Made by a program: the position numbers and the translations under genes. Positions 23,123 to 49,879 of a stretch of DNA of 51,692 nt are shown here, in pieces. The stretch is from the NCBI GenBank assembly GCA_024694675.1, contig JAILJO010000005.1, positions 1 to 51,692 of the forward strand, in the 5' to 3' direction. The notes below the pieces were generated by a model. That model saw nothing but the letters and a program-made list of their open reading frames with translations. It was not told the DNA's origin and did no database searches. Source of the stretch: Bacteroidales bacterium (GTDB taxonomy: Bacteria > Bacteroidota > Bacteroidia > Bacteroidales > UBA932). Positions within the stretch are counted from its first letter, which is position 1, and every line of letters begins with the position of its first letter.

Positions 23123-23677
23123 ATGATAAAGCCCATATACCTTTACGGAGCCGATGTTCTCCGCCGCACCGCAGAACCTGCAGACCTCAAGGACAAAGAG
23201 GGGATTGCAGCCCTGATCGAGGACCTGAAAGACACCCTCAGGGTGGCTGACGGCTGCGGCCTTGCCGCACCCCAGATTGGCGTGAGCAAGCGTGTGGTCA
23301 TTGTGGACGGTGACGTTGTGTCGGACGTTTACGACTACCTGAAAGGCTTCCGCCGCACCCTCATCAACCCGGAAATCCTGGAAGAGAGTGACGAGAAGGT
23401 CACCTATTCGGAGGGCTGCCTTTCCATCCCCGGCATCTACTGCGACATAGTCCGCCCCAAGGTAATCACCGTGAAGTATTTTGACGAGGACCTGAAGGAA
23501 GTGACGGAGACATTCGACAACTTTGCCTCCCGCATGATCCAGCATGAACTCTCCCACCTTGATGGAGACCTCTTCACAGATCACGCCGCTCCCATCCGCC
23601 GCAAGATGATATCGTCAAAACTGCAGGGGATAGTCAAGGGGAAAGTGCATCCGCACTACAATTCCAAGCTTAAATAG
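23123..23677 (+). CDS. def: Peptide deformylase
   Basis: Def removes the formyl group from nascent proteins. The 184-residue enzyme has the three motifs GCGLAAPQIGV, EGCLSIPG and QHELSHLDG (metal ligands Cys, His, His and catalytic Glu), all intact. The track's earlier start lies within ruvX; ATG 23123, one base after the ruvX stop, gives MIKPIYLYGADVLR, the normal N-terminus. Its last 8 bases overlap the convergent phosphatase gene. Confidence 0.96.
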   Translation: MIKPIYLYGADVLRRTAEPADLKDKEGIAALIEDLKDTLRVADGCGLAAPQIGVSKRVVIVDGDVVSDVYDYLKGFRRTLINPEILEESDEKVTYSEGCLSIPGIYCDIVRPKVITVKYFDEDLKEVTETFDNFASRMIQHELSHLDGDLFTDHAAPIRRKMISSKLQGIVKGKVHPHYNSKLK

Positions 23678-24929
23678 CCCAGGTGTCTTTGAGAGCCTGC
23701 CAGTCGTAATAGGGGCCGCCTTCCATGTTCAGGAGGGTGGCTTCTCTTTCGTTAATGAAGAACTTCACCAGGATGTTGCCGGCCTTATTGCGGTAGAAAA
23801 CGGCCTGGAGGTTGGCTGCGAAGGGGGTGTAGAGCCAGCCGGGCCACTCCATGGCCTCTTCCGCGGTAAGGCGTTCCGCAATGCCTTTGACGCCTATGAG
23901 TGCGGCGATGGCAAGGAGGTGATAGTCGTGTCCGAAGCGGAGGTCTGCGACGGTGGGGCCGCCGGCGATGGCTTCATCGGCCTTGGAGATGAAATCGTCC
24001 ATAAACGCCTTCATTTCAGGGACGGCCATGCGGGAGTCTCCGAACTCTACGCTGTTGCACTGGCGGAGATAGAGGTCCAGTGAGTATATCTTGCTGCTGT
24101 ACTCAAGGTCTTCCGGGGCGATGCAGCGGAGGAGGGAATCGTCAAGTTCGAAGGAGCCGCAGATGATGGCAATTTCCATTGCCCTGCGGGTCATTTTGTC
24201 AATTGAACCGACCACTTCATGCGCCTTGTCAATGTCAGTGAAGATGCGGGAGGCGAAGAACATGGTGTCGCGTACATGCGCGTTTCTGTATTCATTGATG
24301 ATTTCGCGGGCTTCATGACGCTTTTCCCTGGTGTCTTCGCTGGAGAGATAATTCATGTACTCTTCTCCGGTGTCCCAGCTGATGTCAAGGTTGCTGTTAT
24401 GGGAAAGCAGTTCGCCGGTGAAGGCGGCCATGCTCACTATGCAGCGGGGAACTACGCTTGATACGGCGCGCACCTTCTTGGCGCCGCTGAAGACACTGTT
24501 GTACTTATTGTACATTCTGTCTGCAATCTGCCTGTGCTCCTTTGCTCCAAGAGGGGTAAGGCGGCCGTCCATGTGGTTGTGAAGGCTTATGACCGTCTTT
24601 ACGGTCTCATAGGCCTTCTCTCCTTCCTCAGTCAGGATGCCTGCCTCGTGCGCCTTCTCGAAGGAGTTGAGAACCTTTCCGTACGACGGACTCTCCCAGT
24701 TGCTCCTTGACCCGTGACGGCCGTAATGGCTTATGTAGAATGGCCTGTACCCTGCCGGAGCATGCGTCTCCGGAGTATGGAAGTATTCGTATGGATTGGT
24801 ATTGACGCCAGTGCGGTTAAGGTTGCTTTCTATGCTGTCCGGAAGAGCTTGAAAGCTGCTGCGGGTTTTGGTCGCACAGCCACAAAACGTCATCGCTGCG
24901 ATGACGGAAAGAATGAGTATTCTTTTCAT
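23670..24929 (-). CDS. Clade-2 histidine phosphatase lipoprotein (acid phosphatase/phytase-like)
   Basis: The 419-residue product has a lipoprotein signal (VIAAMTFCGC, cysteine near 19), the phosphohistidine motif SHYGRHGSR near residue 70, and the second-site LRFGHDYHLL near 328, the HD proton donor of branch-2 histidine acid phosphatases (phytase and MINPP relatives). It would act on phosphate esters such as inositol phosphates or sugar phosphates at the cell surface or in the periplasm. It is transcribed alone; a phosphatase-rich glycan locus begins just beyond it. Confidence 0.83.
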   Translation of the reverse strand: MKRILILSVIAAMTFCGCATKTRSSFQALPDSIESNLNRTGVNTNPYEYFHTPETHAPAGYRPFYISHYGRHGSRSNWESPSYGKVLNSFEKAHEAGILTEEGEKAYETVKTVISLHNHMDGRLTPLGAKEHRQIADRMYNKYNSVFSGAKKVRAVSSVVPRCIVSMAAFTGELLSHNSNLDISWDTGEEYMNYLSSEDTREKRHEAREIINEYRNAHVRDTMFFASRIFTDIDKAHEVVGSIDKMTRRAMEIAIICGSFELDDSLLRCIAPEDLEYSSKIYSLDLYLRQCNSVEFGDSRMAVPEMKAFMDDFISKADEAIAGGPTVADLRFGHDYHLLAIAALIGVKGIAERLTAEEAMEWPGWLYTPFAANLQAVFYRNKAGNILVKFFINEREATLLNMEGGPYYDWQALKDTWAI

Positions 24930-24994
24930 GTTTTAAATTATACTTTACAGTATTGAGTTACACCTACAGGCCGCAAGATAACAAAAAAATTTGT

Positions 24995-25002
24995 TATTTT
25001 TG
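24995..25002 (+). promoter_or_regulatory. -7 element for the plus-strand DUF4832-like gene
   Basis: TATTTTTG lies 22 bases before the ATG at 25025 and fits the -7 consensus. The -33 box is not clear. Confidence 0.45.
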
Positions 25003-25024: not shown

Positions 25025-26311
25025 ATGAAACGTCCTTTTTTGCGCCTTTTGCCCTTGTTTCTTGCCGCCTGCGCATGCACGAAAACTCCAGAAGAAAAAG
25101 AGTATGCTGAGGACGATTTCATCGATTATATCTCCGTTTCGGTGAATTCTCAGATCACTGAAGTTCAGCCCATGACGGGAATCGTCCTTTGGAGCGATTC
25201 CGGCTCCGTAAAGAAAGACTGGGTCACTATGGAGTATGCCTATATGCTCTACAACGATGTCTGCAAGGCCAAGGACTCCTTTGACTGGACTCCCATGGAA
25301 AATCTCCTTAGCAAGGCTGCCTCACGCGGGCACCAGGTGGTGGTACGCTTCAGGTATTCTTACCCCGGCAAGAGCTGCTCCGTTCCGGATTATATAAAGG
25401 AGCTTGACGACTATGAGGTCCTTTGGGCAAAGGCCGAGGGCAGGAATACTGAGTATCCTGACTGGCGTTGCTCAGAGCTTAAGCGTTTCCACAAGGAGTT
25501 TCACAAGAGATTCGCCGAGAAATATGACAAGGATCCGCGCCTTGCTTTTCTTGAGACAGGCTTTGGTCACTGGGCGGAGTATCATGTATATGACGGCAAG
25601 TTCATAGCGGGCCAGACTTTCCCTCCCAAAGATTTTCAGGCAGAGTTCATGAAGGGAATGGCGGAGTGGTTCAAGGAAACCACCTGGAGTATTTCCATAG
25701 ACGCCGCAGACAACCAGTACGGTCCTTTCCAGAAGTATCCGGAACTGCTTGACCTTACCTTCGGCAACTTTGACGATTCCTTCATGTGCGAGGACCACGA
25801 CAGTTACAACTACGATAGTTGGAAGTTCTTCGGTGAGAATCGTTACAAAAAGGCCCCTCTGGGAGGCGAATTCAGCTATTATTCCGATTATGACCAGAAG
25901 CACTGCCTTGACGCCGGCGGAATGTATGGCCGCAAGTTCGAGGACGAGGTGGCCAAGTTCCACATGACCTTCATTATAGGCAACGATCAGCCCGGCAAAC
26001 AGACCGATGTCCGTATAAAAGAAGCTGCAATGTCGATGGGCTACCGCTTCCGGGTGGACGACTTTCGCGTGAAACCGGGTACCGGCGCTGCCGTAAAGAT
26101 TTCCAACGTGGGTGTTGCTCCAATCTATCGTGATGCATTTGTGGCGGTGGACGGCAAGAGGGGAGAGTACTCCCTCAAGAACCTTATGCCGGGAGAAAGC
26201 AAGTGGATAAAAATAGACTCTCCCAAAATCTCGGAAGAGTCTGAACTTGCAATTGAATGCGATCACCTGGTTCCCGGCCAGGAAATCCAGTTCCAGGCTG
26301 GGGTTATTTAA
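25025..26311 (+). CDS. DUF4832-like secreted lipoprotein (TIM-barrel type)
   Basis: The 428-residue protein has a lipoprotein signal (LPLFLAACAC) and a barrel-like domain sharing landmarks with the two DUF4832 proteins at 33207 and 34877: VVVRFRYSYPG (their CxLRFaY/GYSND), LETGFGHWAEYH (their QAGFIGxWGEWH), GGEFSY (their GGETC), and a C-terminal β-domain with VGVAPIYRDAFVAVDG (their NTGYAAPMNPREA). The similarity is by eye. Such barrels are proposed to be glycosidase-like, but activity is unknown. It faces the locus from the far end and overlaps the esterase gene by 8 bases tail to tail. Confidence 0.65.
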   Translation: MKRPFLRLLPLFLAACACTKTPEEKEYAEDDFIDYISVSVNSQITEVQPMTGIVLWSDSGSVKKDWVTMEYAYMLYNDVCKAKDSFDWTPMENLLSKAASRGHQVVVRFRYSYPGKSCSVPDYIKELDDYEVLWAKAEGRNTEYPDWRCSELKRFHKEFHKRFAEKYDKDPRLAFLETGFGHWAEYHVYDGKFIAGQTFPPKDFQAEFMKGMAEWFKETTWSISIDAADNQYGPFQKYPELLDLTFGNFDDSFMCEDHDSYNYDSWKFFGENRYKKAPLGGEFSYYSDYDQKHCLDAGGMYGRKFEDEVAKFHMTFIIGNDQPGKQTDVRIKEAAMSMGYRFRVDDFRVKPGTGAAVKISNVGVAPIYRDAFVAVDGKRGEYSLKNLMPGESKWIKIDSPKISEESELAIECDHLVPGQEIQFQAGVI

Positions 26312-27665
26312 TCCGGTCTTTAAAATATTTCATGATGGTGTTGAACCAATTGGCCGGATAATCATGCGTCATCTCAGCGTAGAAGTGCATCTCCTTGTCT
26401 GTGCTTAGCAGATTCTTATAAGGAGCGATGTTGGTATGTGGCGGGCATGTCCTGTCCTGGAGGCCGCTTGTGGCATATACGGCACACGAGATTCTTGTAG
26501 CCAGATTCTTTGTATCGAAATATGAGAGGAATGCATACATTTCCTCATCGGTCATCGTTCCCTGCTTTTTCTTGGCCTCATTTCCCGGCCAGTAAGCAAC
26601 CTTGAAATAATCGGGAAAATCTCCAAGGAAGGCCACATTAGGGGAGATTGCTGTGAACGGATAATCACTGAGTGCCGCCGCCGCATAGCAAAGTGCGCCT
26701 CCCTGGCTGGAACCCTCCGCGAAGAGGTTGTTCATGTCGCTGGTAGTGCGGGTGGCCATAAAACGGACTGCCTGAACACAGTCCATGAAGGCTCCGCGAT
26801 AGTAGTAGCCGTCCTTGTCTCCGAAGTTGAACGTGAACCAGTCTCCGTAAATGTTCTCAAAGTCCCTGTCAATGCCGTCAGAGCGTTTTGACGCAGGACG
26901 ATGATTGATATACTGACCTCGGTGAGACAGATAAAATTCAGCAAACTCACCGTATCCGGAAGGACAGTCAAGTTTTCCCGGATTGTTGAGAGTATCGTAG
27001 CCGTAGAAATGAATAAGAACCGGATGCTTCTTGCCGTCCTGCGGTTCCAGATAGTATCCCCGCACAATAACGGGTTCTCCGTCCAATCCGTCCGGGGCAG
27101 ACTGCATCTCCACCAGATACACTTTACATGAGGAATTGCTCTTTTTGGTAACCTCCGTCAATGTTACGGTGGTTTCATCCAAAACAGGAAGCTGACCTTT
27201 GGCAGTATCCCAGAACCGGTCAAAATCCGCCTGCTTGTCCGGGGCGGAAACAATGTCCAGAGGAGATACTCCAAAATAGAAATTCCGAGCCGTCTTCTTG
27301 TTTACTTTGCAGTCAGCATTATAGATGCTGGGATCCAAATCCTGATCCGTGGTGAAAGGAATGTCAATACTGCCGTTGGCCGGTACCTTTACACTTTTCT
27401 CAAGAGTGGCGACAGGAACCTCCATGTCGGTAGCTATCTTGACAATTGCATTTGCATCGATGGATACCTTATTTGGATTCTCAATGTGAATGGTTATGGA
27501 CGGGCGCTTTTCAAATACCCAGTTGTCGGTAACCGGGACCGATAAACTCAATGGTTTCAGGTCTGCCGGATTCTGCTCCTCGTTGTCATCAGGTGTACAA
27601 CCGGCAATCAGTACGCTGCTAATGGCAAGAGTAGCAAGAATGGGATAAAATAGACCTTTTCTCAT
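26304..27665 (-). CDS. Acetyl-xylan-esterase-like (AXE1 family) secreted hydrolase
   Basis: The 453-residue lipoprotein (signal ending LIAGC) has an N-terminal Ig-like β-domain (about 40-140) and a C-terminal alpha/beta hydrolase of the AXE1/cephalosporin-C deacetylase type. The nucleophile elbow is EGSSQGGALCYAAAALS, the acid region is TSGLQDRTCPPHTNIAPY and the histidine is in MTHDYPANWF. It would remove acetyl groups from glycans in the periplasm or on the surface. ATG 27665 (MRKGLFYPILATL) is chosen over the longer track start because it begins the signal peptide. Last gene of the minus-strand locus. Confidence 0.8.
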   Translation of the reverse strand: MRKGLFYPILATLAISSVLIAGCTPDDNEEQNPADLKPLSLSVPVTDNWVFEKRPSITIHIENPNKVSIDANAIVKIATDMEVPVATLEKSVKVPANGSIDIPFTTDQDLDPSIYNADCKVNKKTARNFYFGVSPLDIVSAPDKQADFDRFWDTAKGQLPVLDETTVTLTEVTKKSNSSCKVYLVEMQSAPDGLDGEPVIVRGYYLEPQDGKKHPVLIHFYGYDTLNNPGKLDCPSGYGEFAEFYLSHRGQYINHRPASKRSDGIDRDFENIYGDWFTFNFGDKDGYYYRGAFMDCVQAVRFMATRTTSDMNNLFAEGSSQGGALCYAAAALSDYPFTAISPNVAFLGDFPDYFKVAYWPGNEAKKKQGTMTDEEMYAFLSYFDTKNLATRISCAVYATSGLQDRTCPPHTNIAPYKNLLSTDKEMHFYAEMTHDYPANWFNTIMKYFKDRIK

Positions 27666-27669
27666 GATT

Positions 27670-28542
27670 CTATTCCCTTGAGAAGATAAGCACACAGCTG
27701 ATAGCGGCTACCATACCAACAATCTGCGGGACTGTAGGAACGGCGGCATAAAGGATGAGGGAAATGACGCACATGATTACAGGGGCGCAGGCGTCTGCAA
27801 GGGGAGCGATGACCATGGCCTTTCCATAGCGGTTGGCATACACCAGCGTAAAGGCGCCAATGGCGTTGAGAATCTGTACGCCGAACACTTTCATGGGTTC
27901 ACCCCAGCCGAAGGAGCACAGCGAAGCGTCACCCTTGCCCATGACCAGGGCCACAGGAATAAGGATTACGGCCGATATTGCCATATACACGAACACGCTT
28001 TCAGCATCCGGCGTGGAGTTGTTGGCAAGCTTCATGACGAAAGCCTGGATACCCCAGAATATGAACACTACGGACGCGTACAGAATCCAAATCCAGCTGC
28101 TGGCCGCGCCGCCCTCTGATTTATCAGGCAGGGCAAAGCACACCAGTGCTACAAAGGCAAGGACGATTCCCAGAATGCCCAGCCTGGACACCCTTTCCTT
28201 AAGGAATATTGCCGACAGGAGCACGGTGACGATAGGTGCCACTGAAATCATGGGCATCACCAGATATGCCGGAGCATAGTCCAGGGCAAGGAAAAGCACC
28301 AGCTGTCCGCCAGCACCCAGAAGCCCCACGCCCATGCTAAGGAGCGCCGGCTTCGAGCGTACATCCAGCTTGAATTTGATATTCACAAGTGCCAGCAGGG
28401 CGCAGGGGACCATGCTCAGCGCCCACATCACATACACCAATGTCTTAGGGAGCGTTGTCTGGTCGCTGAAAGCGCCCCAGATGCCCCAGGTTACCATAGT
28501 AATTATGGCATACAGTAACCAATTATGTTTCTTTTCAGTCAT
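27670..28542 (-). CDS. DMT-superfamily (EamA-like) permease
   Basis: The 290-residue protein has about ten hydrophobic segments arranged as two EamA-like halves; the first half ends in APIVTVLLSAIFLKERVSRLGILGIVLAFVALV, a signature DMT/EamA stretch. It is an inner-membrane transporter of unknown substrate. Being inside the glycan locus, it may import a released sugar or export a product. It starts next to the alkaline phosphatase stop and ends 4 bases before the esterase, so it is translationally packed in the operon. Confidence 0.82.
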   Translation of the reverse strand: MTEKKHNWLLYAIITMVTWGIWGAFSDQTTLPKTLVYVMWALSMVPCALLALVNIKFKLDVRSKPALLSMGVGLLGAGGQLVLFLALDYAPAYLVMPMISVAPIVTVLLSAIFLKERVSRLGILGIVLAFVALVCFALPDKSEGGAASSWIWILYASVVFIFWGIQAFVMKLANNSTPDAESVFVYMAISAVILIPVALVMGKGDASLCSFGWGEPMKVFGVQILNAIGAFTLVYANRYGKAMVIAPLADACAPVIMCVISLILYAAVPTVPQIVGMVAAISCVLIFSRE

Positions 28543-28543
28543 A

Positions 28544-29674
28544 TTACTTAACAAAAGATGCAATCAACTGACCCCACTCTGCATTCTCTCTGATTCCAGT
28601 AAACTTGTCACTTCCCGGCCCCCAGGCATACACGGGAACCGCTATGCCGTTATGGGACTCGTTGGCGAAGTGGACGCCAATGCGGCCTTCCTCGAGATTG
28701 CCGTCTTGGAGGGTGAGGGCTCCGGTGTTATGGTCTGCGGTAACAATCACAAGGGTGTGGCCGTCCTTTGCCGCCCATTCAAGGACATCGCCTATAGTGC
28801 GGTCAAAGTCCAGGAGTTCTTCCATGGCCTTTTCAATGTCATTACCGTGCAGCCAGTCATCAATGCATGAGCCTTCAAGCATCATCACAAAACCTTTGTC
28901 TCCGCTTCCCTTGGACAGGAGGTCAAGACCGCGTGCAACGGTGTGGCGGTAAAGGTCTCCGCGTTCCATGGCAACGGGAAGGTTGTCCGGAGCAAGGATT
29001 CCTATTACCGGAAGGTCCGCAGCCATGAGCTCGTCTTCAGTGAGCGCCACGTTGTAGCCGGCAGCGGCCATTTCCTTTATGATATTGCGTCCGTCGGTAC
29101 GTTTGACATCTGTGAACCAGTCCGTACCACCGCCGGAGAGATAGTCAACTCCGCATTCCAGATAGTCTGCAATGAGGTCTTCCTGGTTGTAGCGTTCCTC
29201 GTTGTGGCAGCAGAAGTCGCAGGGCGTGGCATCGGCAAAATGGCAGGTGACGGCAACGCCGGTTTTTTTGCCAAGCTGCTGCGCCTTGACCAGCACAGAA
29301 GGAAGGTCCGTTCCGTCCGGGGTTACGCCGACGTGGCTCTCAGCTGTTTTGACGCCGGCGGCAAGGGCTGTTCCGCCAGCCCCGGAATCCGTGATGAGAT
29401 AGTCAGTGCAGTATGTTCTGGAAAGGCCAACGTAGGGGAAGTTATCGAAGTTAAGCTTTCCTTTGTTCAGGACCCATGCGCAACTCACCTGTTCCAGCCC
29501 CATGCCGTCGCCAATCATGAGGATAACGTTCTTGACCTCGCTGGTGACAGGCGGCATCTGGACATTTACAATGTCGTATGTATATGGCGTCTGGTAGTAC
29601 TGAAGGACAATCTCCTTCTCCTTACAGGCAGTCAATAAGGCAATGGCCGATAAGACGACGATCGATTTTCTCAT
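28544..29674 (-). CDS. Alkaline phosphatase (PhoA superfamily) lipoprotein
   Basis: The 376-residue enzyme has a lipoprotein signal (AIALLTAC) and the PhoA metal and nucleophile motifs: VILMIGDGMGLEQ (Asp metal ligand), TDSGAGGTALAAGVKT (nucleophile Ser), MLEGSCIDDWLHGND and VIVTADHNTGAL (Asp, His). All are intact. It would hydrolyse phosphomonoesters in the periplasm. Its position among tyrosine-phosphatase-like lipoproteins and glycan enzymes suggests dephosphorylation of a glycan or sugar phosphate rather than general phosphate scavenging. Confidence 0.9.
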   Translation of the reverse strand: MRKSIVVLSAIALLTACKEKEIVLQYYQTPYTYDIVNVQMPPVTSEVKNVILMIGDGMGLEQVSCAWVLNKGKLNFDNFPYVGLSRTYCTDYLITDSGAGGTALAAGVKTAESHVGVTPDGTDLPSVLVKAQQLGKKTGVAVTCHFADATPCDFCCHNEERYNQEDLIADYLECGVDYLSGGGTDWFTDVKRTDGRNIIKEMAAAGYNVALTEDELMAADLPVIGILAPDNLPVAMERGDLYRHTVARGLDLLSKGSGDKGFVMMLEGSCIDDWLHGNDIEKAMEELLDFDRTIGDVLEWAAKDGHTLVIVTADHNTGALTLQDGNLEEGRIGVHFANESHNGIAVPVYAWGPGSDKFTGIRENAEWGQLIASFVK

Positions 29675-29680: not shown

Positions 29681-30925
29681 CTAATTGGCTGGGACGTCTT
29701 CCAGCATGGCGGCGCGGAATGTCTCGATGGCACTGTCGTCAATACCTATCTCGTTGAAGTATTTCTGTACGCACGTCTGGAACTCGTCATAGGAGCCGTC
29801 TTCATGCTTACCGTAATTCCAAAGGAACATGGCAGCGCCATCGTAGTCCACACCGAGGAGGCGGGTCATCTGGGTCTTTTCGCCTTCAGATACGCTGTAA
29901 CCAGCAGGCGCGAATTGGGTAATCTCATATTCTTTGGAGATATCGCCTTCATTTACACCCAGGATGCCAAGCAGTAGCAGTGATATCGTCCCGGTACGGT
30001 CACGTCCAAGGGAGCAGTGATAATAGACCGGCTCATCGTTGGCAATGCAGTTGAAGATAAAGGCTATGCACTGGCGGGTCTTTTCCTTGTCATCGCGAAG
30101 CATCTGCGTGTAACCCTCTTCGATGCACGGGGCGAGGAACGTGTATTTGGAATCGGCATTGGGATAACCGTCCATGGCGCTGTGATCCAGATATTCCTGG
30201 CTTCCGCTGGTAGTGTGGCCGCGCAAATCCAGTTGGGCGCGGATCCCTTCTCCAAGAACATCCTTGATTCCGGCAGAAGTAAGGGTGCTCTCCTGTAAAC
30301 GTCCGCCGCGGTATATCTTGCGGTATTTGATCATCTTCTTACCATCCTTTGTCTTCCATCCACCAAGGTCACGAACGTTGCGCACCCTTGCTTTGAAAGT
30401 TAGCTGGTGCAGGTGTCCGTAGGTGGTAAAGTGTCCGCTTTTGACCACGGTTCCGCCATTCTTTACCTGATATGTATAGCTGGCATTTGGACGCAGGTTG
30501 GTAATCTCCCAATAACCATCTTCTGTTGTACCGATGTTCTTGGTATAGCTCCAGTCTCCTTCCGAAAGGGTGCCGGTATAAACATCAGTCTTGTTTCCCT
30601 CGAAACGGATAGTATAAGTGGAAGGGATGTCGGAAACACCGGGAGAAACCTGATCTTTATATATACCGTTATTTCCACGCTTTATTGCCGAATAACTGTA
30701 GTCCCTCTCCGGATAATCCACTGTGGTAATAAACGTTTCGACAAGCTGATTGGTGGCCAGGATGTTGTCTCCGTCCTGAATCTCGGGAGCGAGTTCATCG
30801 GCCGGATCTACCTCTACGGGATTGGTGTTCTGCCCATTGTCGCCATTCTGGTTTTCCGCATTGTTTGGCGTGCAGAGAACCATGACAGGGATCAGCAGGG
30901 AAATGAAAAGTAAACGTGTTTTCAT
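29681..30925 (-). CDS. Tyrosine-phosphatase-like (Y_phosphatase3/DSP) lipoprotein
   Basis: The 414-residue protein has a signal peptide ending at a lipobox-like VMVLC, an N-terminal FN3-like β-domain (TYTIRFEGNK...SYTYQVKNGG, about 60-165) and a C-terminal phosphatase domain: VRNVRDLGGWKTKDGKKMIKYRKIYRGG and the active-site loop HCSLGRDRTGTISLLLLG (Cx5R). Such enzymes can act on sugar or inositol phosphates as well as phosphotyrosine. A close relative is at 48350. Confidence 0.85.
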   Translation of the reverse strand: MKTRLLFISLLIPVMVLCTPNNAENQNGDNGQNTNPVEVDPADELAPEIQDGDNILATNQLVETFITTVDYPERDYSYSAIKRGNNGIYKDQVSPGVSDIPSTYTIRFEGNKTDVYTGTLSEGDWSYTKNIGTTEDGYWEITNLRPNASYTYQVKNGGTVVKSGHFTTYGHLHQLTFKARVRNVRDLGGWKTKDGKKMIKYRKIYRGGRLQESTLTSAGIKDVLGEGIRAQLDLRGHTTSGSQEYLDHSAMDGYPNADSKYTFLAPCIEEGYTQMLRDDKEKTRQCIAFIFNCIANDEPVYYHCSLGRDRTGTISLLLLGILGVNEGDISKEYEITQFAPAGYSVSEGEKTQMTRLLGVDYDGAAMFLWNYGKHEDGSYDEFQTCVQKYFNEIGIDDSAIETFRAAMLEDVPAN

Positions 30926-36259: not shown

Positions 36260-36272
36260 ACTCAAATCAAGT

Positions 36273-37046: not shown

Positions 37047-37107
37047 AGTTTTTAAAGATTTTGTGTTAAAAAAGTGATAAAAAGGTTTTTGAATATAGTC
37101 TGATTTA

Positions 37108-42097: not shown

Positions 42098-43324
42098 TTA
42101 TAGCAAATCATTAAGTCCTATGAGGTTGAATGCGCGGAAGTACTTGTCCATATCCCTTTCAATGCGGCCAAGGACAATCTCCTCTGCGTCCACGCCAAGG
42201 CGCTGGAGGTTTGCGTAAAGGGTTCCGCGTGCTGCAAGCGGTTTGGGCTGCTGCCATATGTAGCGGCAGCAGGTGGCTACAATCCAATCCTGACGTTCCG
42301 GGGTGAGCTCATACAGATCCTTGCCCTTTTCGTCCTCGTGGAGCCATTTTTCCCAGCGGTGGCTTTCGTGAACAGCCTCCAGAAGGGTGTCTTTCATATT
42401 TGAAGGAACGGCGATGTGTCCTTCTGCATAGTGCTTCTTTTCAAGCTGCTCCAGCTCACAGAGTGCGCGGTATTCGCCGATTGTGAATTCAGGGCCTACG
42501 TTGGCTGCACCCATGCCGCAGAGAGGATACTCCTCAGGGTTGGCGACATCGTCTGTGTAATGACCTTTAATGTAGCTGCCAAGAGGACGTACCTTGGAGG
42601 TGAGTTTCTTGGCGACGGAACCGTCGAATATCGTAGTATCCAGGTCTGTGCCCACTTTACCCACGATGAAGCAAGGCCAGACATCTTCCAGACCAACACT
42701 CTTCAGTCCTGCTTTCAGGTCACTGATGAAAGTGTCGAATGTGGTTTCGTCTGCAAGGCCGCCGTGGACCTCTTCCGTGCCCACCTCATAGGAGATGGCG
42801 GGAAGGCCGTGGGCTTTTCGGAACTTTTCCGTGTGCTCGATGAGTTCTACGGTGCGTTTTGCTACCAGGTGAATGTCGATGATCTCTCCCTTGGGGACGT
42901 TGATGTCTACGGTGGGGTCGACATGGATAAGGTCATATCCGGCCAGGACTGCGGCCTCGAAGGATTTCTTCACGCCATCCATGGCGTCCTTAACGGACCA
43001 TTTCTCCGTCCTCTGCTTGTCCTTGAGCCAGGGACCGCCGTGGTCTATGGCAATGATGACGGGGCCGGTGAAGTTGACCCTTTCCGTTTCAAAACGGACC
43101 AGGCGGCAGAACTGCTCCTGGGTCATGCCGGTATAACCGCCGTCGCAGTCAACCTGGTTGAGGGTGGCTGCGAAATAGATGGGGGCGTTGTTGCGCTTTG
43201 CTGCGCGAAGGGATGCACGGATGACGGTAGGGGAGTTGGGGCATGCCGCGAAAATGGTGCGGGGAATGCCTGTCTCTTTCTGAAGTTGGTCAATGCGGTG
43301 AAGCAGTTGTTCTGTCTTTGCCAT
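42098..43324 (-). CDS. D-tagatose-bisphosphate aldolase non-catalytic subunit-like (GatZ/KbaZ)
   Basis: The 408-residue cytoplasmic protein fits the GatZ/KbaZ family (PF08013-like): IPRTIFAACPNSPTVIRASLRAAKR, AIDHGGPWLKD, DPTVDINVPKGEIID and YEVGTEEVHGGLAD. In Enterobacteria GatZ/KbaZ supports the class II aldolase GatY/KbaY in splitting tagatose 1,6-bisphosphate. No GatY is found in the window, so the partner must be elsewhere or the protein has another role. It follows agaS after 5 bases. Confidence 0.87.
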   Translation of the reverse strand: MAKTEQLLHRIDQLQKETGIPRTIFAACPNSPTVIRASLRAAKRNNAPIYFAATLNQVDCDGGYTGMTQEQFCRLVRFETERVNFTGPVIIAIDHGGPWLKDKQRTEKWSVKDAMDGVKKSFEAAVLAGYDLIHVDPTVDINVPKGEIIDIHLVAKRTVELIEHTEKFRKAHGLPAISYEVGTEEVHGGLADETTFDTFISDLKAGLKSVGLEDVWPCFIVGKVGTDLDTTIFDGSVAKKLTSKVRPLGSYIKGHYTDDVANPEEYPLCGMGAANVGPEFTIGEYRALCELEQLEKKHYAEGHIAVPSNMKDTLLEAVHESHRWEKWLHEDEKGKDLYELTPERQDWIVATCCRYIWQQPKPLAARGTLYANLQRLGVDAEEIVLGRIERDMDKYFRAFNLIGLNDLL

Positions 43325-43329: not shown

Positions 43330-44445
43330 TTAATATAAGGTTACGCCCTCTACCACGCGGGAAATGTTTCCGCTCACGGAAGGGCTGTCCGGGCAGAGCC
43401 CGCGTTCAATCGATTTGAAGCATCCCAGCATCTGGCCTACGAATACGTATGAAACGCAGCCGTAGCATACGGGAAGCTCGAGAGGAAGGCCAATCTCTAT
43501 GCAGAGGTTGTAGCAGGAAGGGTCGATGTCCGGCTTGCTGAAGCAGACAATAACTGAAGCCTTCACGTTGTTGTTGGATTTTACCTGCTTGATGAGGTCC
43601 TTCTCATAGCGCTGGACGTCCGGGTTGGGGGAGACCAGATATACCATGAGGGACTGCGGGTTCACCAGGGCTTTGGGGCCGTGGCGGAAACCAAGGAAGG
43701 AATCGTATGCGCACATGACCTCTCCGTCCGTGAGTTCCTGGAGTTTGAGGCGGCATTCCTCAGCAACGCCCTTCATGGGGCCGGAGCCAAGGAATATGGC
43801 GCGCTTGAAATCAAGGTTGGCTATACCCTTGATGGCTTCTTCATACTTATCCATGGCTGCCTTAACCTTTGAGGCAAGGAGTTCGATATGGACCTTCTGA
43901 TCCTCAATCTTGTCTATGTTGGCAATGAGAGAGCATGCCAGAAGCATGGTAGAGTAGCTGCTGGTCATGGCAAGGGAGACGTCGTTGGTCTCCGGAGGAA
44001 GCAGGACCGTAAGTATGTTGGAGGCCTTGGTGAGGGCCATCTCTCCTTCTGCGTTGCAGGTGATGAAAATGTGGGCTATGCTGCCGGCGGTCTTGTTGAC
44101 TGCCTTTACGGCGCCCAGGCTTTCCGGTGAATTGCCGGAACGGCCGAAGGAAACAAGGAGGACCTTGCTGTCCTTGTTGAAATACATGTACGGAGTTGTG
44201 ATGATATCCGTAGTTGCAATGGCTTTGGCACCCCTGAAAGGAGTGTCGTGAAGAGCTGTCTGAAGGGCGTCGCCAATGTATGCCGATGTGCCGGCGCCGG
44301 TGAGAACAATCTCATACCCAAGTGCAAGCCACTTGTCCGTGAAACTCTTAATCTCCTCTTTGCGGGATGCAATAATCTGATACGCTTCAAGCCAGACACG
44401 GGGTTGCTGCTTGATTTCCCTGTAGGTATGTAGGTCTGTTAACAT
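43330..44445 (-). CDS. AgaS-type SIS-domain sugar isomerase/deaminase
   Basis: The 371-residue protein has two SIS domains: YEIVLTGAGTSAYIGDAL and LLVSFGRSGNSPESLGAV in the first, RAIFLGSGPMKGVAEECRLKLQELTDGEVMCAYDSFLGFRHGPKALV in the second. AgaS converts galactosamine 6-phosphate to tagatose 6-phosphate with ammonia release. With the PfkB kinase and GatZ-like subunit, this outlines a galactosamine route. A -7-like TATTTTTG box lies about 25 bases upstream, after the regulator's terminator. Confidence 0.85.
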   Translation of the reverse strand: MLTDLHTYREIKQQPRVWLEAYQIIASRKEEIKSFTDKWLALGYEIVLTGAGTSAYIGDALQTALHDTPFRGAKAIATTDIITTPYMYFNKDSKVLLVSFGRSGNSPESLGAVKAVNKTAGSIAHIFITCNAEGEMALTKASNILTVLLPPETNDVSLAMTSSYSTMLLACSLIANIDKIEDQKVHIELLASKVKAAMDKYEEAIKGIANLDFKRAIFLGSGPMKGVAEECRLKLQELTDGEVMCAYDSFLGFRHGPKALVNPQSLMVYLVSPNPDVQRYEKDLIKQVKSNNNVKASVIVCFSKPDIDPSCYNLCIEIGLPLELPVCYGCVSYVFVGQMLGCFKSIERGLCPDSPSVSGNISRVVEGVTLY

Positions 44446-44515: not shown

Positions 44516-44625
44516 AATTTATTCCGCCTCTTCCAATTCGCCCTGAAATGCGTTTGTAAATATCTTATTATCAGTTGATTGTTTTAAAAATGAAAACATT
44601 TCAAGGGGTTTCGAATCTGGAAGGG

Positions 44626-45417
44626 TTACGCACCTACCAGTTCCACATTGATTTTCAGGGACTTCAACTGGCTTTTGATGCTTGCAGGAAGGTGGATGTC
44701 CGTGATTACAGTGTTGATTTTGTCTGCCGATGTAATATATGCAAATGCACGCTTGTTAACCTTGGAAGAATCGAACACCGCAATGACCTCGCGGGCTCTG
44801 GAAATCATGACCTGATTGGTGCTGGCTTCCTCCACGCTGGGGGTTGAAAGACCGGCGTCCACGCTGAAGGAATCTACGCCCAGGAAGAGCTTGTCACAGT
44901 AGAACAGCTTGAGGTTTGATTCCGCAAGCGGTCCCACTGTGGAATTGCTTGATTCACGCACAGTTCCGCCAAGGAGAATCACCTTGAATCTCTTGTATTT
45001 CAGGGCCTCCTGCATGGCGTTCACGGAGTTTGTGATAATGGTGAGATCCTGGAATGCGTCAAGGTTACGTGCAACCTCAAGAGCGGTTGTTCCGGAGTCT
45101 ATGAGGATGGTGTCACCCTCGTTGATATGGGCGGCTGCGGCACGGCCTATGGCCTGCTTCTCGCGGGAGTTTACAAGGCTCTTGAAATTGATGTTCCTCT
45201 CTTCGGATTCATCCTTGTTTGCCTTGACGCTCATTATGGCCCCGCCATGTACGCGGACCAGAAGTTTTCTTTCTTTAAGGATCTTCAGGTCTTTTCTGAT
45301 TGTAACTTCCGAAACTCCAAACTGTTTGCTTAGCTGGGAGACGTTGACGGATGAGTCTTCGCGTACTTTCTGAAGAATGGCAGAGCGGCGCCCTTGGGCG
45401 GAATCGTAAATATTCAT
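44626..45417 (-). CDS. DeoR-family transcriptional regulator (AgaR-like)
   Basis: The 263-residue protein has an N-terminal winged helix (VSQLSKQFGVSEVTIRKDLKILKERKLLVRVHGGAI, about 23-60) and a C-terminal sugar-phosphate sensor (IDSGTTALEVARNLDAFQDLTIITNS, VILLGGTVRESSNSTVGP, DKLFLGVDSFSVDAGLSTPSVEEA), both typical of DeoR repressors that respond to phosphorylated sugars. It lies between the divergent agaS/susC arm and the kinase arm, and its promoter holds a palindrome that may be its operator, so it likely represses the whole locus in the absence of substrate. Confidence 0.88.
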   Translation of the reverse strand: MNIYDSAQGRRSAILQKVREDSSVNVSQLSKQFGVSEVTIRKDLKILKERKLLVRVHGGAIMSVKANKDESEERNINFKSLVNSREKQAIGRAAAAHINEGDTILIDSGTTALEVARNLDAFQDLTIITNSVNAMQEALKYKRFKVILLGGTVRESSNSTVGPLAESNLKLFYCDKLFLGVDSFSVDAGLSTPSVEEASTNQVMISRAREVIAVFDSSKVNKRAFAYITSADKINTVITDIHLPASIKSQLKSLKINVELVGA

Positions 45418-45436: not shown

Positions 45437-45467
45437 CAAATATAGAAATAATTTCAAATGAAACAAA
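45437..45467 (-). promoter_or_regulatory. Consensus promoter with palindrome for the DeoR-type gene
   Basis: On the minus strand TTTG (45464-45467), 19 bases, then TATATTTG (45437-45444) is an exact -33/-7 pair. The palindrome TTTCAAATGAAA (45452-45463) lies between them and is a good candidate operator for autoregulation. Confidence 0.7.
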
Positions 45468-45555
45468 ACAAAACGTTTTTTTGTGGTAAAATGGTATATA
45501 TATACTGAGGAATCGAAATATTTTTCACATATTCGCTAAATAAAAACCAATAACC

Positions 45556-46509
45556 ATGAAACAGTATGACATTGCCGCAATAGGCGAACTCAACGTAGAC
45601 ATAATCCTGAACCAGATAGAGTCGGAGCCGGAGATAGGAAAAGAGAAGTTTGCAAAGCAAATGACTGTGACCCTTGGCAGCAGCACTGCCATTTTTGCCG
45701 CGAACGCAGCGGCTCTTGGCAGTAAAGTCTGTTTCGTGGGAATGGTAGGAAAGGACTCTTTCGGGGATCTTGTCCGCACTTCCCTTGAGGCAAAAGGCGT
45801 TGATACGAAATATCTTATCATAGGTGAAACGCCAACGGGTGCCACCATCTGCATGAGCTATGGAGAGGACCGCGCCAACCTTACATACCAGGGCGCTATG
45901 GACGTGATGGGCTTCGACGATATAGATAAAACCGTTTTCGACAACGCCAAACACATTCACCTGTCCTCGCTTTTCATGCAGAGCGGCCTCCTCAGGGACA
46001 TAGACAAGATTCTTGATCTTGCCAAATCGAAAGGCGTAACCGTTTCGCTTGATACCCAGTGGGACCCCATGGAAACATGGAAACTGGACTACAAGCGCGT
46101 CCTTCCCAAGATTACCGTTTTCATGCCCAATGAGAAAGAACTCATGGCCCTCACCCATAAGGACAATCTTGAAAGCGCCATTCAGGAGGTCCTCCCTCAC
46201 CTTGGCAACGCCATGCTGGTAAAATGCGGCTCTGACGGCTCCATCCTGGTGCGTAAAGACGGTTCCAGGGTTGTTCTGCCTGCGTTCTTGAATAAGGATG
46301 TAGTAGACTGCATAGGCGCAGGAGACAGTTTCAACTCCGGTTTCATCAGCGCCTTCGTAAAGGGCCTTTCGCTGGAAGACTGCCAGATAACCGGCAACCT
46401 CACCGGCGCCGTAAATACCACAGCATCCGGCGGCACGGGCGCATTTGTGTCCCTTGAACACGTTAGGGAAATCTGCCGCACAAAATTCGGAAAGGAAATC
46501 AAACTCTAA
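45556..46509 (+). CDS. PfkB-family sugar kinase
   Basis: The 317-residue kinase has the ribokinase-type fold: IGELNVDIILNQI at the start, GSSTAIFAANAAALGSKVCFVGMVGKDSFGD (substrate lid), and VDCIGAGDSFNSGFISAFVKGL with the catalytic DxxGAGDxF near 250. Substrate cannot be told from sequence; in this locus tagatose 6-phosphate or galactosamine/GalNAc are the best guesses. It is the first plus-strand gene, divergent from the regulator, and precedes the glycosidase by 4 bases. Confidence 0.88.
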   Translation: MKQYDIAAIGELNVDIILNQIESEPEIGKEKFAKQMTVTLGSSTAIFAANAAALGSKVCFVGMVGKDSFGDLVRTSLEAKGVDTKYLIIGETPTGATICMSYGEDRANLTYQGAMDVMGFDDIDKTVFDNAKHIHLSSLFMQSGLLRDIDKILDLAKSKGVTVSLDTQWDPMETWKLDYKRVLPKITVFMPNEKELMALTHKDNLESAIQEVLPHLGNAMLVKCGSDGSILVRKDGSRVVLPAFLNKDVVDCIGAGDSFNSGFISAFVKGLSLEDCQITGNLTGAVNTTASGGTGAFVSLEHVREICRTKFGKEIKL

Positions 46510-46513
46510 TAAT

Positions 46514-48334
46514 ATGAAAAGACTCTTCCCAGCAGCCTTATTGCTCCTTGCTGCTATTTCATGCTGCAAGGCCCCTGCCGGAGACCGCCTTCTCCTTGAC
46601 AATAAAGAGGTCAAAGGCATAGAGGTAGTGGAAAACTGCATCGCCCCGGAAGGAATCCCCGGCATGACTGTCCGTGAGATTGCCTTTGTGAACAAATCCG
46701 GCAAAGCAGTCAAGGTCAATGCCGCAGAGTCTTCATTCATAAGCGTAGAAGGTCCGGAAGTCTGGACCTTCCAGCCCAGTTCTACCGCCTGGCGCAAAGA
46801 CTGGGCATTCCCTGTAGAGAAGGGCTTTTACCAGCGCAACTACCTTGGCATGAACGATCCGGATTACGGCGGCGGCATCCCCATGGTAACGCTTTGGACA
46901 AAGGATGCCAATCTTAGCGTCGGCATCGCGGAAGACCGTCTCAAACTGGTTTCCATGCCCGTAAAGCGCAAGGGCAACATCACTACCGCCTGCATTAGGG
47001 AAGATTACGATACTCCCGTGGAACTGCAGCCGGGAGACACTCTCCGCGTATGCCGCCAGTTCATCCTGGAAAGCACCGGAGACTTCTTCAATCCCCTCAG
47101 AACCTTCTCGCAGTATATGGCAGAGACCTTCTGCTGGAAGGCCCCGGTTTCCCCGGAAAGCGCATATGAGAGCGTCTGGTGCGCCTGGGGTTATGAGCGC
47201 CAGTTTACTGTGGACGAGGTGATCGGCACCCTCCCCAAGGTTGTGGAACTGGGATTCAAATGGGTGGACGTGGACGATGGCTACCAGATCTGCGAAGGGG
47301 ACTGGACCGCGAACCCCCGCATAGGCCCGGACGGTATGAGGCGCATGACTGACGCCATCCACGCCGCCGGTATGAAAGTGAAACTCTGGTGGGCGCCCCT
47401 TGCCGCAGATCCGGAGAGTTCCCTTGCAAAAGAGCACCCTGAGATGCTCCTGGTCCAGAAAGACGGTTCCCACGAGGACATCACCTGGTGGGACAGCTGG
47501 TACCTTTCACCTGTGAATCCGTACACCCAGGCATATACGCGGGATTTGGTTGACATGTTCATCAAGGACTGGAACTTCGACGGTTTCAAACTTGACGGAC
47601 AGCACCTTAACCTATGCTCCCCGGATTACAATCCTGCCAGCGGACTGGACAGACCTGAAGAAGCACCTGAACGTATGCCGGAATTCTTCAAGGACCTGTA
47701 CGACAGGGCTCAGGCGGACAAGCCGGGCGCCATCGTCCAGATATGTCCCTGCGGAGATGCTTTCAATTTCTTCAACGTCCCGTACGTGAACCAGGTGGTG
47801 GCATCGGACCCCACTTCCAGCGCCCAGATAAGGATGAAGCGCAGGGCCTTCGCCGCCATGGCTCCGGAACTTGCGTTCTATGCAGACCACGTTGAACTCA
47901 GCGACGGCGGCCTCGACTTTCCTTCGCAGATTGGCGTGGGCGGAATAATCGGCACCAAATTCACCTGGCCGGAGCCTAATCCTCACGCAACGGAGAATGG
48001 CGGAAGCCTGCTCACCCCGGAGAAGGAAGCTCTGCTCCGCAAATGGGTCCCTATCTATAATGAAAAAATGCTCTCCCGCGGAGAGTACCTGAACCTGTAC
48101 GATTATGGCTTTGACAAGCCTGAGGCCCATGTAATCAGCAAGGACGGCGCCATGTATTACGCCTTCTATGCAGAAAAATGGGACGGCGCTCCCATAGAGC
48201 TCCGCGGCCTTGAAGCCCGTGAGTATACGGTCACAGAGTACACTGCAGATGAGCCCCGCTCATATACCATTGACGGTTCCAATCCCGTCATCACCCCTGT
48301 ATTTAAAGGCAATTACCTCATTGAAGTCAAATAA
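46514..48334 (+). CDS. Alpha-galactosidase-type (GH36/GH27-like) lipoprotein
   Basis: The 606-residue enzyme has a lipoprotein signal (LLLLAAISC), an N-terminal β-domain and a (βα)8 barrel with WVDVDDGYQICEGDW, AAGMKVKLWWAPL, WNFDGFKLDGQHLN (nucleophile Asp of the KxD motif) and VVASDPTSSAQIRMKR (acid/base Asp region). This is the clan GH-D layout of alpha-galactosidases and alpha-N-acetylgalactosaminidases. The aga-type genes nearby favour release of GalNAc or galactose in the periplasm or at the surface. Exact family is not certain. ATG 46514 is chosen since it starts the signal peptide. Confidence 0.8.
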   Translation: MKRLFPAALLLLAAISCCKAPAGDRLLLDNKEVKGIEVVENCIAPEGIPGMTVREIAFVNKSGKAVKVNAAESSFISVEGPEVWTFQPSSTAWRKDWAFPVEKGFYQRNYLGMNDPDYGGGIPMVTLWTKDANLSVGIAEDRLKLVSMPVKRKGNITTACIREDYDTPVELQPGDTLRVCRQFILESTGDFFNPLRTFSQYMAETFCWKAPVSPESAYESVWCAWGYERQFTVDEVIGTLPKVVELGFKWVDVDDGYQICEGDWTANPRIGPDGMRRMTDAIHAAGMKVKLWWAPLAADPESSLAKEHPEMLLVQKDGSHEDITWWDSWYLSPVNPYTQAYTRDLVDMFIKDWNFDGFKLDGQHLNLCSPDYNPASGLDRPEEAPERMPEFFKDLYDRAQADKPGAIVQICPCGDAFNFFNVPYVNQVVASDPTSSAQIRMKRRAFAAMAPELAFYADHVELSDGGLDFPSQIGVGGIIGTKFTWPEPNPHATENGGSLLTPEKEALLRKWVPIYNEKMLSRGEYLNLYDYGFDKPEAHVISKDGAMYYAFYAEKWDGAPIELRGLEAREYTVTEYTADEPRSYTIDGSNPVITPVFKGNYLIEVK

Positions 48335-48349
48335 TTTAACACTTATACT

Positions 48350-49879
48350 ATGAATAAACGATTCCTGACATTATTCCTGATTCTTCCCTTACTGGTGTGC
48401 TGCAACGATAAGGACAACAAGAAGCAGGATATTGACCCAATGATCACAATCACCGGTGAAACAGAGTTCTCTATTAAAGCAGAGGGCGGTACCGCTACCT
48501 TCACGGTCACATCAAATGTGGATTGGAACTCTGAGATCGATGTTGACTGGGTAGCATTAAGCCCGGCCAGCGGAGTCGCTTCCGATAAGCCTGTCACTGT
48601 GACCTTGACTTGCTTCCAAACTCCCAAACTGAAAAAAAGGACCACCGATATTGCAATTACCGGCGGCGGTTTACGAAAGTTCATCAGCGTAATTCAGTCG
48701 GGTGATCCCATGGCCGGTGCAGCCGAGGAAATCAAGAGCGGAGCTACGGTCCTGGCCACCAATCCCCTGGTGGAGAAATTCCTTACTGAAGTGACTTACA
48801 AGGATTGGCCGGAAGAGGACAATAGCACAAGGGCGACCAGGATTTTTGACTATTACGGAGGCTTTGACGGCGTGAACCTCACTTGGGACAACTGGGGTAC
48901 GGAATGGCCCGATGGTGACATCCCGTGCCACTACAGCATCCGTTGGAAGCAGGAAGATATTGAATCCGGTGTCATGAATCTCCATCTTGAGGATAAACTT
49001 GGATGGAAGGGTGATCAGGAGATTGAAGCCGGCTCCCTCTATGTAAACATCAAGAATCTGGTTCCGAATGACAACTATACCTACAGGGTAACCGCAAAAA
49101 GTGGTAAAGTCCTGGCTGAGGGTAATTTCAGTACAACCGGCCATCTGCATCAGGTTTATTTCCTTGGAGATCCACAGAAACCCAATGTGAAGGGCGGTGG
49201 CGGACGTAATGCCCGTGACTTTGGCGGCTGGAAGACACTCGACGGAAAGACTATAAAATACCGCAAGGTCTACCGTGGCGGTCGTCTTAACGAAAAATGG
49301 ACCCCGTACCCGCTCAATGCCCAGGGAGAGAAAGAGGTCCTCTTTGAGGGGCTTGGTGCAGAGTTGGATCTTAGAGGAAATGACGACGTGATGTTTGAAC
49401 CTGCCGTTGCCGGACTTGATCACTGCGCTCCCGTTATTGAACAGGGCGGCGTGACCATGCTGAAGAATGATGCCGCCAAGACTAAGCAGTGCTTCGAGTT
49501 TGTGGTGAACAGCGTTCGCAACAACAAGCCCATCTATTTCCACTGCTCTCTGGGCCGTGACCGTACCGGCACTCTGTTCATCTTGCTCATGGGCGTTCTT
49601 GGCGTGAGAGAAGGAGACATTGCCAAGGAGTATGAACTTACGTACTTTGCCCCTGTGGGTTACAGCGTTTCTTCATCTGACAAAAAGTCCAATAAAATCC
49701 CTACTTTCCATAATACGCGCCTGGCTTGGGTTTACAGTGACGTAACTCCTTATTTCTGGGAGTTTGCACAACAAACCACTGGCAAGACGTTTAAAGAGGG
49801 CGTAGAGAAATACCTTCTTGAAGTCGCCGGCGTAAGCCAGCAGGACATCGACGATTTCAGAACGATGATGCTCGAATAA
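48350..49879 (+). CDS. Tyrosine-phosphatase-like lipoprotein with BACON-like domain
   Basis: The 509-residue protein has a lipoprotein signal (LILPLLVCC), an N-terminal BACON-like β-domain (FSIKAEGGTATFTVTSNVDWNSEIDVDWVALSPASG, about 40-120), an FN3-like segment and a phosphatase domain with GGRNARDFGGWKTLDGKTIKYRKVYRGG and HCSLGRDRTGTLFILLMG (Cx5R loop). The phosphatase half closely resembles the protein at 29681, so they are paralogues at opposite ends of the locus. BACON domains are linked to glycan or mucin binding, so the substrate is likely a glycan phosphate. It overlaps the convergent wbqC gene by 23 bases. Confidence 0.85.
   Translation: MNKRFLTLFLILPLLVCCNDKDNKKQDIDPMITITGETEFSIKAEGGTATFTVTSNVDWNSEIDVDWVALSPASGVASDKPVTVTLTCFQTPKLKKRTTDIAITGGGLRKFISVIQSGDPMAGAAEEIKSGATVLATNPLVEKFLTEVTYKDWPEEDNSTRATRIFDYYGGFDGVNLTWDNWGTEWPDGDIPCHYSIRWKQEDIESGVMNLHLEDKLGWKGDQEIEAGSLYVNIKNLVPNDNYTYRVTAKSGKVLAEGNFSTTGHLHQVYFLGDPQKPNVKGGGGRNARDFGGWKTLDGKTIKYRKVYRGGRLNEKWTPYPLNAQGEKEVLFEGLGAELDLRGNDDVMFEPAVAGLDHCAPVIEQGGVTMLKNDAAKTKQCFEFVVNSVRNNKPIYFHCSLGRDRTGTLFILLMGVLGVREGDIAKEYELTYFAPVGYSVSSSDKKSNKIPTFHNTRLAWVYSDVTPYFWEFAQQTTGKTFKEGVEKYLLEVAGVSQQDIDDFRTMMLE

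Follow-up and report, generated by a model that had tools for sequence, protein, structure and literature searches.

The stretch of DNA analysed here (the window) comprises 51,692 nucleotides of contig C15 from the genome of a rumen-type gut member of the Bacteroidota (2.1 Mb in 157 contigs, 86% complete), and the element in question is a gene cluster that occupies positions 23670-49879 (23.7-49.9 kb) of that window. It contains adjacent genes for a SusC-like TonB-dependent transporter (38917..42036, minus strand; PF00593, PF07715 and PF13715) and a SusD-like protein (37108..38916, minus; PF07980 and PF14322), accompanied by surface glycan-active lipoproteins, which is the arrangement that defines a polysaccharide utilization locus (PUL); nearly all of its secreted proteins begin with a lipobox, as read by eye. 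The locus is taken to be such a PUL. A preliminary description had listed a histidine phosphatase, an alkaline phosphatase, two tyrosine-phosphatase-like lipoproteins (PTP1 and PTP2), an esterase and SusCD; Pfam searches recovered all of these genes where they had been placed, with the catalytic motifs of the phosphatases intact, and the analysis also revealed genes that had been overlooked, namely those encoding AgaR, AgaS, AgaZ, a PfkB-family kinase and three DUF4832 proteins. For comparison, 80 loci and their flanks (L numbers below) were taken from genome contigs, mostly of rumen and gut Bacteroidales metagenome-assembled genomes, and 41 near loci were compared; many of these end at contig breaks, and the counts given refer to the flanks only.

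Upstream of the SusC gene are found an AgaZ/GatZ-KbaZ-like gene (42098..43324, minus; PF08013, 120 bits), whose product would act at the tagatose-6-phosphate or tagatose-1,6-bisphosphate step, a gene for an AgaS-family SIS enzyme (43330..44445, minus; a putative galactosamine-6-phosphate deaminase/isomerase that PDB AgaS homologues match over its full length, with E 3e-77), and a gene for an AgaR-like regulator of the DeoR family (44626..45417, minus). A gene for a PfkB-family sugar kinase (45556..46509, plus; PF00294, 170.7 bits) is divergent from these; a minus-strand open reading frame at 45454-46797 was rejected as a shadow of pfkB and of the next gene, GHmel. AgaS converts galactosamine-6-phosphate to tagatose-6-phosphate (PMC12118421). 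AgaZ itself has been proposed to be a tagatose-6-phosphate kinase (PMC4694137, PMC12118421), so PfkB may act at one or another kinase step; a class II aldolase is encoded in the same gene cluster in two relatives (L083 and L094). The locus contains no agaA, the deacetylase gene, and in published reconstructions the presence of agaS without agaA marks organisms that use galactosamine (GalN) only (PMC5583593). The locus thus resembles the aga operons of Escherichia coli and Firmicutes in its AgaR, AgaS and AgaZ logic and in the operators beside agaR, but differs from them in lacking a phosphotransferase system and agaA and in adding SusCD uptake and secreted phosphatases.

The strongest single clue to the identity of the sugar, as judged from sequence, is provided by GHmel (46514..48334, plus), a lipoprotein of glycoside hydrolase (GH) family 36. 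The preliminary description had called it an alpha-galactosidase-type enzyme, and while Pfam does classify it as Melibiase-like, it lies closer to FpGalNase, an exo-alpha-galactosaminidase, than to classical alpha-galactosidases: a profile of GHmel and its relatives matches FpGalNase (PDB 9awt/9ay8) with E 8e-86, ahead of the classical enzymes, and the single sequence does so with E 8.5e-58. In Flavonifractor plautii, FpGalNase cleaves the alpha-galactosamine that is left once FpGalNAcDeAc has de-acetylated the A antigen, and nine active-site residues have been described (PMC11762096). Eight of these nine (W317, D346, D347, W387, K461, D463, C513 and D532) are retained in GHmel (as W225, D254, D255, W292, K359, D361, C413 and D432, respectively), and the ninth, Y464, is replaced by glycine. 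The GHmel active-site positions are identical in 20 of 20 aligned orthologues; two aligned sequences that are divergent outliers (L140 and L141, the latter a GH31 protein) differ at the positions of C513 and D532. Since GHmel is a homologue of FpGalNase with eight of its nine active-site residues, the sugar that it releases is predicted to be de-N-acetylated alpha-galactosamine. The locus is nonetheless unlike the Flavonifractor pair, in that no FpGalNAcDeAc homologue was recognised and the gene setting is different.

Three lipoproteins of the DUF4832 type point in turn to a polymer. Two of them, D4874a (34877..36265, minus; 193 and 139 bits) and D4874b (33207..34877, minus; 159 and 148 bits), are DUF4874-DUF4832 TIM-barrel proteins encoded downstream of SusD, and the third, D4832c (25025..26311, plus; PF16116, 28.5 bits against a cutoff of 29.2), is a probable glycoside hydrolase encoded at the far end of the locus. 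Two glutamates (in D4874b, the equivalents of E175 and E284) are invariant across 31 relatives, and an AlphaFold2 model of D4874a (pLDDT 92) consists of a TIM barrel and a beta domain, with Foldseek matches to GH5 enzymes and beta-amylase. In streptococci and clostridia, pel operons contain DUF4832 genes alongside those for a CotH kinase, a polyphosphate polymerase and DUF4956 (PMC7112168); Pel is a biofilm polymer of alpha-1,4-linked N-acetylgalactosamine (GalNAc) and GalN, and SIR_1591, a protein of the Streptococcus intermedius pel operon with a TIM barrel, DUF4832 and a beta-amylase-like fold, was reported in 2025 to disperse Pel aggregates (PMC12345266). D4874a shares with SIR_1591 its TIM barrel, C-terminal DUF4832 domain, beta-amylase-like fold and extracellular placement, and also possesses conserved acidic residues; it is accordingly a predicted endo-hydrolase of an alpha-GalNAc/GalN polymer. 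A difference is that SIR_1591 belongs to a Pel producer, whereas the three DUF4832 proteins here are encoded with SusCD and a GalN catabolic pathway in what is presumably a consumer. An unguided search of a plasmid collection returned only distant DUF4832 proteins, and most of their contexts (in Actinomyces, Treponema, Acidisarcina and Spirosoma) were uninformative; a relative of D4832c on the Paenarthrobacter plasmid pTC2 (tblastn 26%, E 3e-19) adjoins galE, a GHL15 hydrolase gene and a gene for a PelF-type glycosyltransferase with DUF3492, the N-terminal part of PelF.

Related clusters were also encountered elsewhere. In Prevotella sp. oral taxon 299, an oral species that shares its habitat with Pel-making streptococci, a cluster (L121, 7132-18256) consists of SusC, SusD, DUF4874/DUF4832, unknown, fn3_5 and GH31 genes in that order. 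Separate clusters of SusCD, a lipoprotein and DUF4874, in which no phosphatase was recognised, are present in G042:C14 and G108:C36 (L141 and L139); the former includes GH31 and GH109 genes and the latter a D4832c-type gene.

Because homologues of AgaR, AgaS and AgaZ, a PfkB kinase, two DUF4874-DUF4832 lipoproteins and eight of the nine FpGalNase active-site residues are found together in the absence of agaA, the sugar is taken to be galactosamine, and the specificity of the locus for alpha-GalN is considered likely. The preliminary description had left the choice between galactosamine and galactose open; the former is favoured strongly by the Aga proteins, by the FpGalNase-type enzyme and by the GH109 alpha-N-acetylgalactosaminidases of relatives (encoded mostly beside PTP2 and GHmel), and the latter finds no counterpart, as the locus is without a galactose pathway.

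Four phosphatases are encoded alongside these genes. The first is a lipoprotein of the branch 2 histidine acid phosphatases (MINPP-like; 23670..24929, minus; His_Phos_2, 27 bits), which matches the histidine acid phosphatase 7r5y (E 8e-38) and BtMINPP (E ~1e-31) in the PDB, contains an RHGSR motif, and displays HDY near its C-terminal half versus HAE in L041 and L129; its gene accompanies the locus in some relatives (L039, L041, L061 and L129). The second is a short alkaline phosphatase lipoprotein of 376 residues (28544..29674, minus; PF00245, 220.6 bits) with the motif TDSGAGG. The third and fourth, PTP1 (29681..30925, minus; PF13350, 107 bits) and PTP2 (48350..49879, plus; PF13350, 96 bits), are Y_phosphatase3 lipoproteins, and both contain HCSLGRDRT, a version of the HCX5R(S/T) signature that is present in 52 of 53 homologues; they are the only two copies of PF13350 in this genome. 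PTP2, whose gene starts 15 bp after GHmel, additionally carries a BACON domain (BACON_2, 26.6 bits, above cutoff) and an fn3-like domain (20 bits, below cutoff). Laforin and SEX4 are glucan phosphatases, and PTP2 may be compared with them by analogy, in that each joins a phosphatase of the tyrosine or dual-specificity type to carbohydrate-associated domains; unlike them, PTP2 is a secreted bacterial lipoprotein of the PF13350 family, with a galactosamine polymer rather than a glucan as its presumed substrate. Long PF13350 proteins (to ~1850 residues) were also observed outside the agaZ locus in other genomes (G114 contigs C38, C56 and C58; G092 contigs C23, C27 and C36).

Two candidate assignments relating to phytate were rejected. 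No Pfam match to the PTP-like cysteine phytase family (PF14566) was found anywhere in the genome. The lipoprotein Prop (30943..32505, minus), which had been described as a phytase-like propeller, scores 15.4 bits with the Pfam Phytase model against a cutoff of 21, and PDB phytases match it with E ~0.03; its top profile match is E. coli YjiK, and the fold agrees (AlphaFold2 pLDDT 87.8; PDB 3qqz, TM(target) 0.70), so that its C-terminal region is instead a beta-propeller of the YjiK/SdiA-regulated type. FpGalNAcDeAc also contains a propeller; a GalNAc deacetylase of that kind was listed neither by sequence searches with Prop nor among its 50 best fold matches, and this identity for Prop was abandoned.

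The arrangement of putative operators connects most of these phosphatases to galactosamine. A motif (AAaCGAAACAaAACGAAATG) was learned de novo from the spacers beside agaR in 35 loci, and corresponds to a CGAAAC/CGAAAT direct repeat that, in tens of loci, is present at each of the two promoters flanking agaR. It has only two matches of at least 9 bits in the window, both predicted to be AgaR-type operators: one (44597..44616, minus; 22.0 bits) precedes the series agaS-agaZ-susCD through PTP1, alkaline phosphatase, EamA and AXE1, and the other (45456..45475, plus; 23.8 bits) precedes pfkB-GHmel-PTP2. Because the motif was learned at the agaR spacers, its occurrence there is expected, and the informative part is its absence elsewhere in the window and from shuffled sequence, in which no match was found at 13 bits. 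Since operators precede both operons, PTP1, PTP2 and the alkaline phosphatase (three of the four phosphatases) are predicted to be members of a galactosamine regulon.

The order and content of the near loci are well conserved: among the 41, GHmel is found in 33, DUF4874 in 32, a PTP in 25, GH109 in 23, the propeller in 22, alkaline phosphatase in 5 and histidine phosphatase in 3. Linkage was assessed in the 15 genomes (of 150 in the family) that were positive in a search for agaZ, by counting genes that share a contig with agaZ and lie no more than 30 kb from it; counts were taken from hit tables, fragments of a single frame being treated as one gene, the P values ignore relatedness among genomes, and contig breaks reduce the observed counts. 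Under these conditions, linkage to agaZ is far above chance for PF13350 (7 of 19 genes, 0.5 expected, P ~4e-7) and alkaline phosphatase (8 of 25, 0.7 expected, P ~2e-7); the corresponding values are 8 of 16 for GH109 (0.4 expected, P ~3e-9) and 4 of 33 for His_Phos_2 (0.9 expected, P ~0.01). In Paludibacteraceae-type loci (agaS-agaZ-AXE1-pfkB and so on), one to three purple acid phosphatases are encoded in 18 of 26, mostly after pfkB. Their fold differs from those of the window phosphatases, and phosphatases have therefore commonly been recruited to such loci, on at least two occasions. Some of these loci (L104, L102, L079 and others) contain up to three purple acid phosphatases in tandem, some of them fused to right-handed beta-helix domains.

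A second SusCD locus in the same genome (contig C11 of G000, 1-30000; L142 and L143) also contains a MINPP-like enzyme and an alkaline phosphatase (47% identical), together with a YjiK-type propeller fused to GH18, and lies beside GH18, GH20, exo-glucosaminidase-type GH2 and ROK kinase genes; part of it recurs in the sister genome (G085:C8, L145). The phosphatase set therefore accompanies two kinds of amino-sugar polymer, a pattern consistent with matrix polymers that bear phosphate or, alternatively, with a need shared across the lineage.

The best explanation of these observations, to which about as much belief as doubt is attached, is that the locus is an AgaR-controlled PUL for an alpha-linked, partly de-N-acetylated, Pel-type galactosamine polymer that is phosphorylated or loaded with phosphate. 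Its parts differ in standing: alpha-GalN is well supported, Pel moderately so, and phosphate is inferred. A Pel-like substrate is considered an even proposition. The claim of the preliminary description that the target is phosphorylated gains indirect support from (i) the conservation of the phosphatases, (ii) the placement of three of the four in operons headed by AgaR-type operators, and (iii) the occurrence of another phosphatase fold at the same place in distant relatives; the presence of phosphate, whether attached to the substrate or bound by it, is advanced tentatively, as rather short of an even chance. Gene identities, active-site conservation, conserved linkage and shared operators are computed results; the identity of the polymer, the presence of phosphate, the cellular locations and the order of reactions are proposals. 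The polymer would be made by neighbouring, probably Gram-positive, bacteria, and its chain would be cut internally by the surface DUF4874-DUF4832 lipoproteins. The two PTPs, the alkaline phosphatase and probably the histidine phosphatase would remove attached or bound phosphate from the cationic polymer, SusCD would import the oligomers, and the FpGalNase-type GHmel would free galactosamine from chain ends. EamA (27670..28563, minus; PF00892, 87 bits), an inner-membrane permease and candidate sugar importer, would then carry galactosamine inward, and PfkB, AgaS, AgaZ and an aldolase encoded elsewhere would convert it via tagatose phosphates to triose phosphates and ammonia, with a gain of nitrogen.

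The CotH kinase and polyphosphate polymerase of producers may have their counterpart in the phosphatases of consumers, a suggestive pairing. A more speculative extension, which is considered somewhat unlikely, is that the locus is the first to be dedicated to the consumption of Pel, and that the conservation and co-regulation of its phosphatases mean that the Pel of gut Gram-positive bacteria bears phosphate added by the CotH kinase or is bound to polyphosphate made by the polymerase, both of which are encoded in their pel operons; the literature searched contained nothing on point regarding Pel-utilization loci, PUL phosphatases or phosphomannan PULs. Were the explanation correct, rumen Bacteroidales would possess a specific set of enzymes with which to graze on biofilm matrix produced by other bacteria; the separate fields of Pel biofilm chemistry and glycan foraging would be joined; unexplained DUF4832 hydrolases would acquire a role; the reason for the kinase and polyphosphate polymerase genes in the pel operons of Gram-positive bacteria would become directly testable; and new enzymes would be available against GalNAc/GalN biofilms.

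Several observations weigh against this explanation or parts of it. Phosphate on Pel is inferred indirectly. None of the phosphatase families searched for was found in the 11 Tidjanibacter-, Alistipes- and Barnesiella-type loci that possess the same GalN core, and the phosphatases are therefore accessory rather than essential. The histidine phosphatase has no AgaR-type site in the window scan, and a terminator-like hairpin (36279..36307, minus; 12 pairs with a T-rich tail), located inside the long operon between the SusD-adjacent lipoprotein and D4874a, may act as an attenuator that lowers transcription into the genes from D4874a to AXE1. The scores of AgaS, AgaZ and AgaR all fall below the NCBIfam curated cutoffs (for AgaS, 330.9 bits versus 529 with TIGR02815; for AgaR, 231.9 versus 260 with NF040755; and for AgaZ, 95.9 bits with TIGR02810, far under the equivalog cutoff of 568.8). 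GH109 is missing from the window, with one copy elsewhere in the genome. The Pel of S. intermedius is mostly GalNAc, yet GHmel resembles a GalN-specific exo-enzyme. The likeness of D4874a to SIR_1591 is one of architecture and fold, and DUF4874 also occurs in other settings, including a Spirosoma plasmid and a cellulosomal Ruminococcus protein (PMC7480376).

Among other explanations, an unlikely one is that alpha-GalNAc/GalN caps are removed from mucin or blood-group-A-type O-glycans, such as those of salivary mucins reaching the rumen, with the phosphatases acting on phosphorylated peptide or being incidental. The activity of FpGalNase on the de-acetylated A antigen (PMC11762096) and the GH109 genes of relatives agree with it, as does the mucin O-glycan PUL BT4240-50 of Bacteroides thetaiotaomicron, which shares SusCD, a GalNAc-type sugar and an inner-membrane sugar transporter with the present locus and GH109 with its relatives, and which has a GalNAc kinase (PMC11992087). 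That kinase, however, is of the phosphotransferase type and is accompanied by GH2 and an M60 peptidase, with no AgaS in its description, whereas the present locus relies on AgaS, AgaZ and PfkB under AgaR control and adds DUF4874 proteins and phosphatases. Its annotated genes, moreover, include no FpGalNAcDeAc-type deacetylase, sulfatase, sialidase, fucosidase, beta-galactosidase or M60 peptidase, and its DUF4874-DUF4832 proteins are predicted to be endo-acting and of the pel-tied type.

Phytate is common in feed, and the phosphatases might supply phosphate scavenged from inositol phosphates or nucleotides and share the region by convenience. Both the presence of a MINPP-like enzyme and the recurrence of that gene with those for alkaline phosphatase and the propeller in the C11 PUL would suit such a function, which is nevertheless thought rather unlikely: AgaR-type operators precede the operons that contain three of the four phosphatase genes, the linkage of the phosphatases to agaZ is conserved, the PTP-like phytase family is lacking and the propeller is YjiK-like, and the C11 set again adjoins amino-sugar enzymes.

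Fungal galactosaminogalactan, or another non-Pel alpha-GalN polymer, might be degraded by the same enzymes, given that GalNAc-rich Pel aggregates are a target for bacterial PelA and fungal Sph3 alike (PMC12345266), and that the enzyme set defines alpha-GalN and not its producer. This is judged decidedly unlikely, as the genomic link of DUF4832 is with bacterial pel genes and the locus has no dedicated alpha-galactosidase besides the galactosaminidase-like GHmel. GalNAc is present in some wall polymers, but a teichoic acid or other phosphodiester-linked galactosamine polymer, as the preliminary description had proposed, is highly improbable, because no phosphodiesterase is found among the locus genes, the phosphatases act on monoesters, and the DUF4874, GH36 and GH109 glycosidases require glycosidic alpha-GalN(Ac) links. 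Some Roseburia pel genes do occur in larger operons, probably of the capsule or the teichoic acid type (PMC7112168).

The remaining genes of the locus include an AXE1 (CE7-type) esterase lipoprotein (26304..27695, minus; PF05448, 131.8 bits), which in Paludibacteraceae loci is encoded between agaZ and pfkB, and a thioredoxin-like DUF5106 lipoprotein (32514..33206, minus; PF17127, 27.1 bits against a cutoff of 28) that is conserved in relatives. A surface lipoprotein with no Pfam family (36321..37148, minus; its real start is probably ~35 codons inside the open reading frame) is a candidate glycan-binding protein, homologues of which are encoded downstream of SusD in 25 of the 41 near loci. WbqC-like, LpxA and LpxC genes (49857-51690) immediately flank the locus, and the PUL therefore adjoins genes of lipid A. 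Elsewhere in the window, a defence island (192-17436) contains a STAND-type NTPase gene, a SIR2 gene, DndC and DndD/PbeC-like genes, a gene for a PD-Lambda-5_A-like protein, a PtuA/PtuB (Septu) pair and a tyrosine integrase gene. Within it (9735-11396), a DndE domain and a HerA/DndH-like ATPase are encoded in one frame, an arrangement that may be unusual for Dnd genes.

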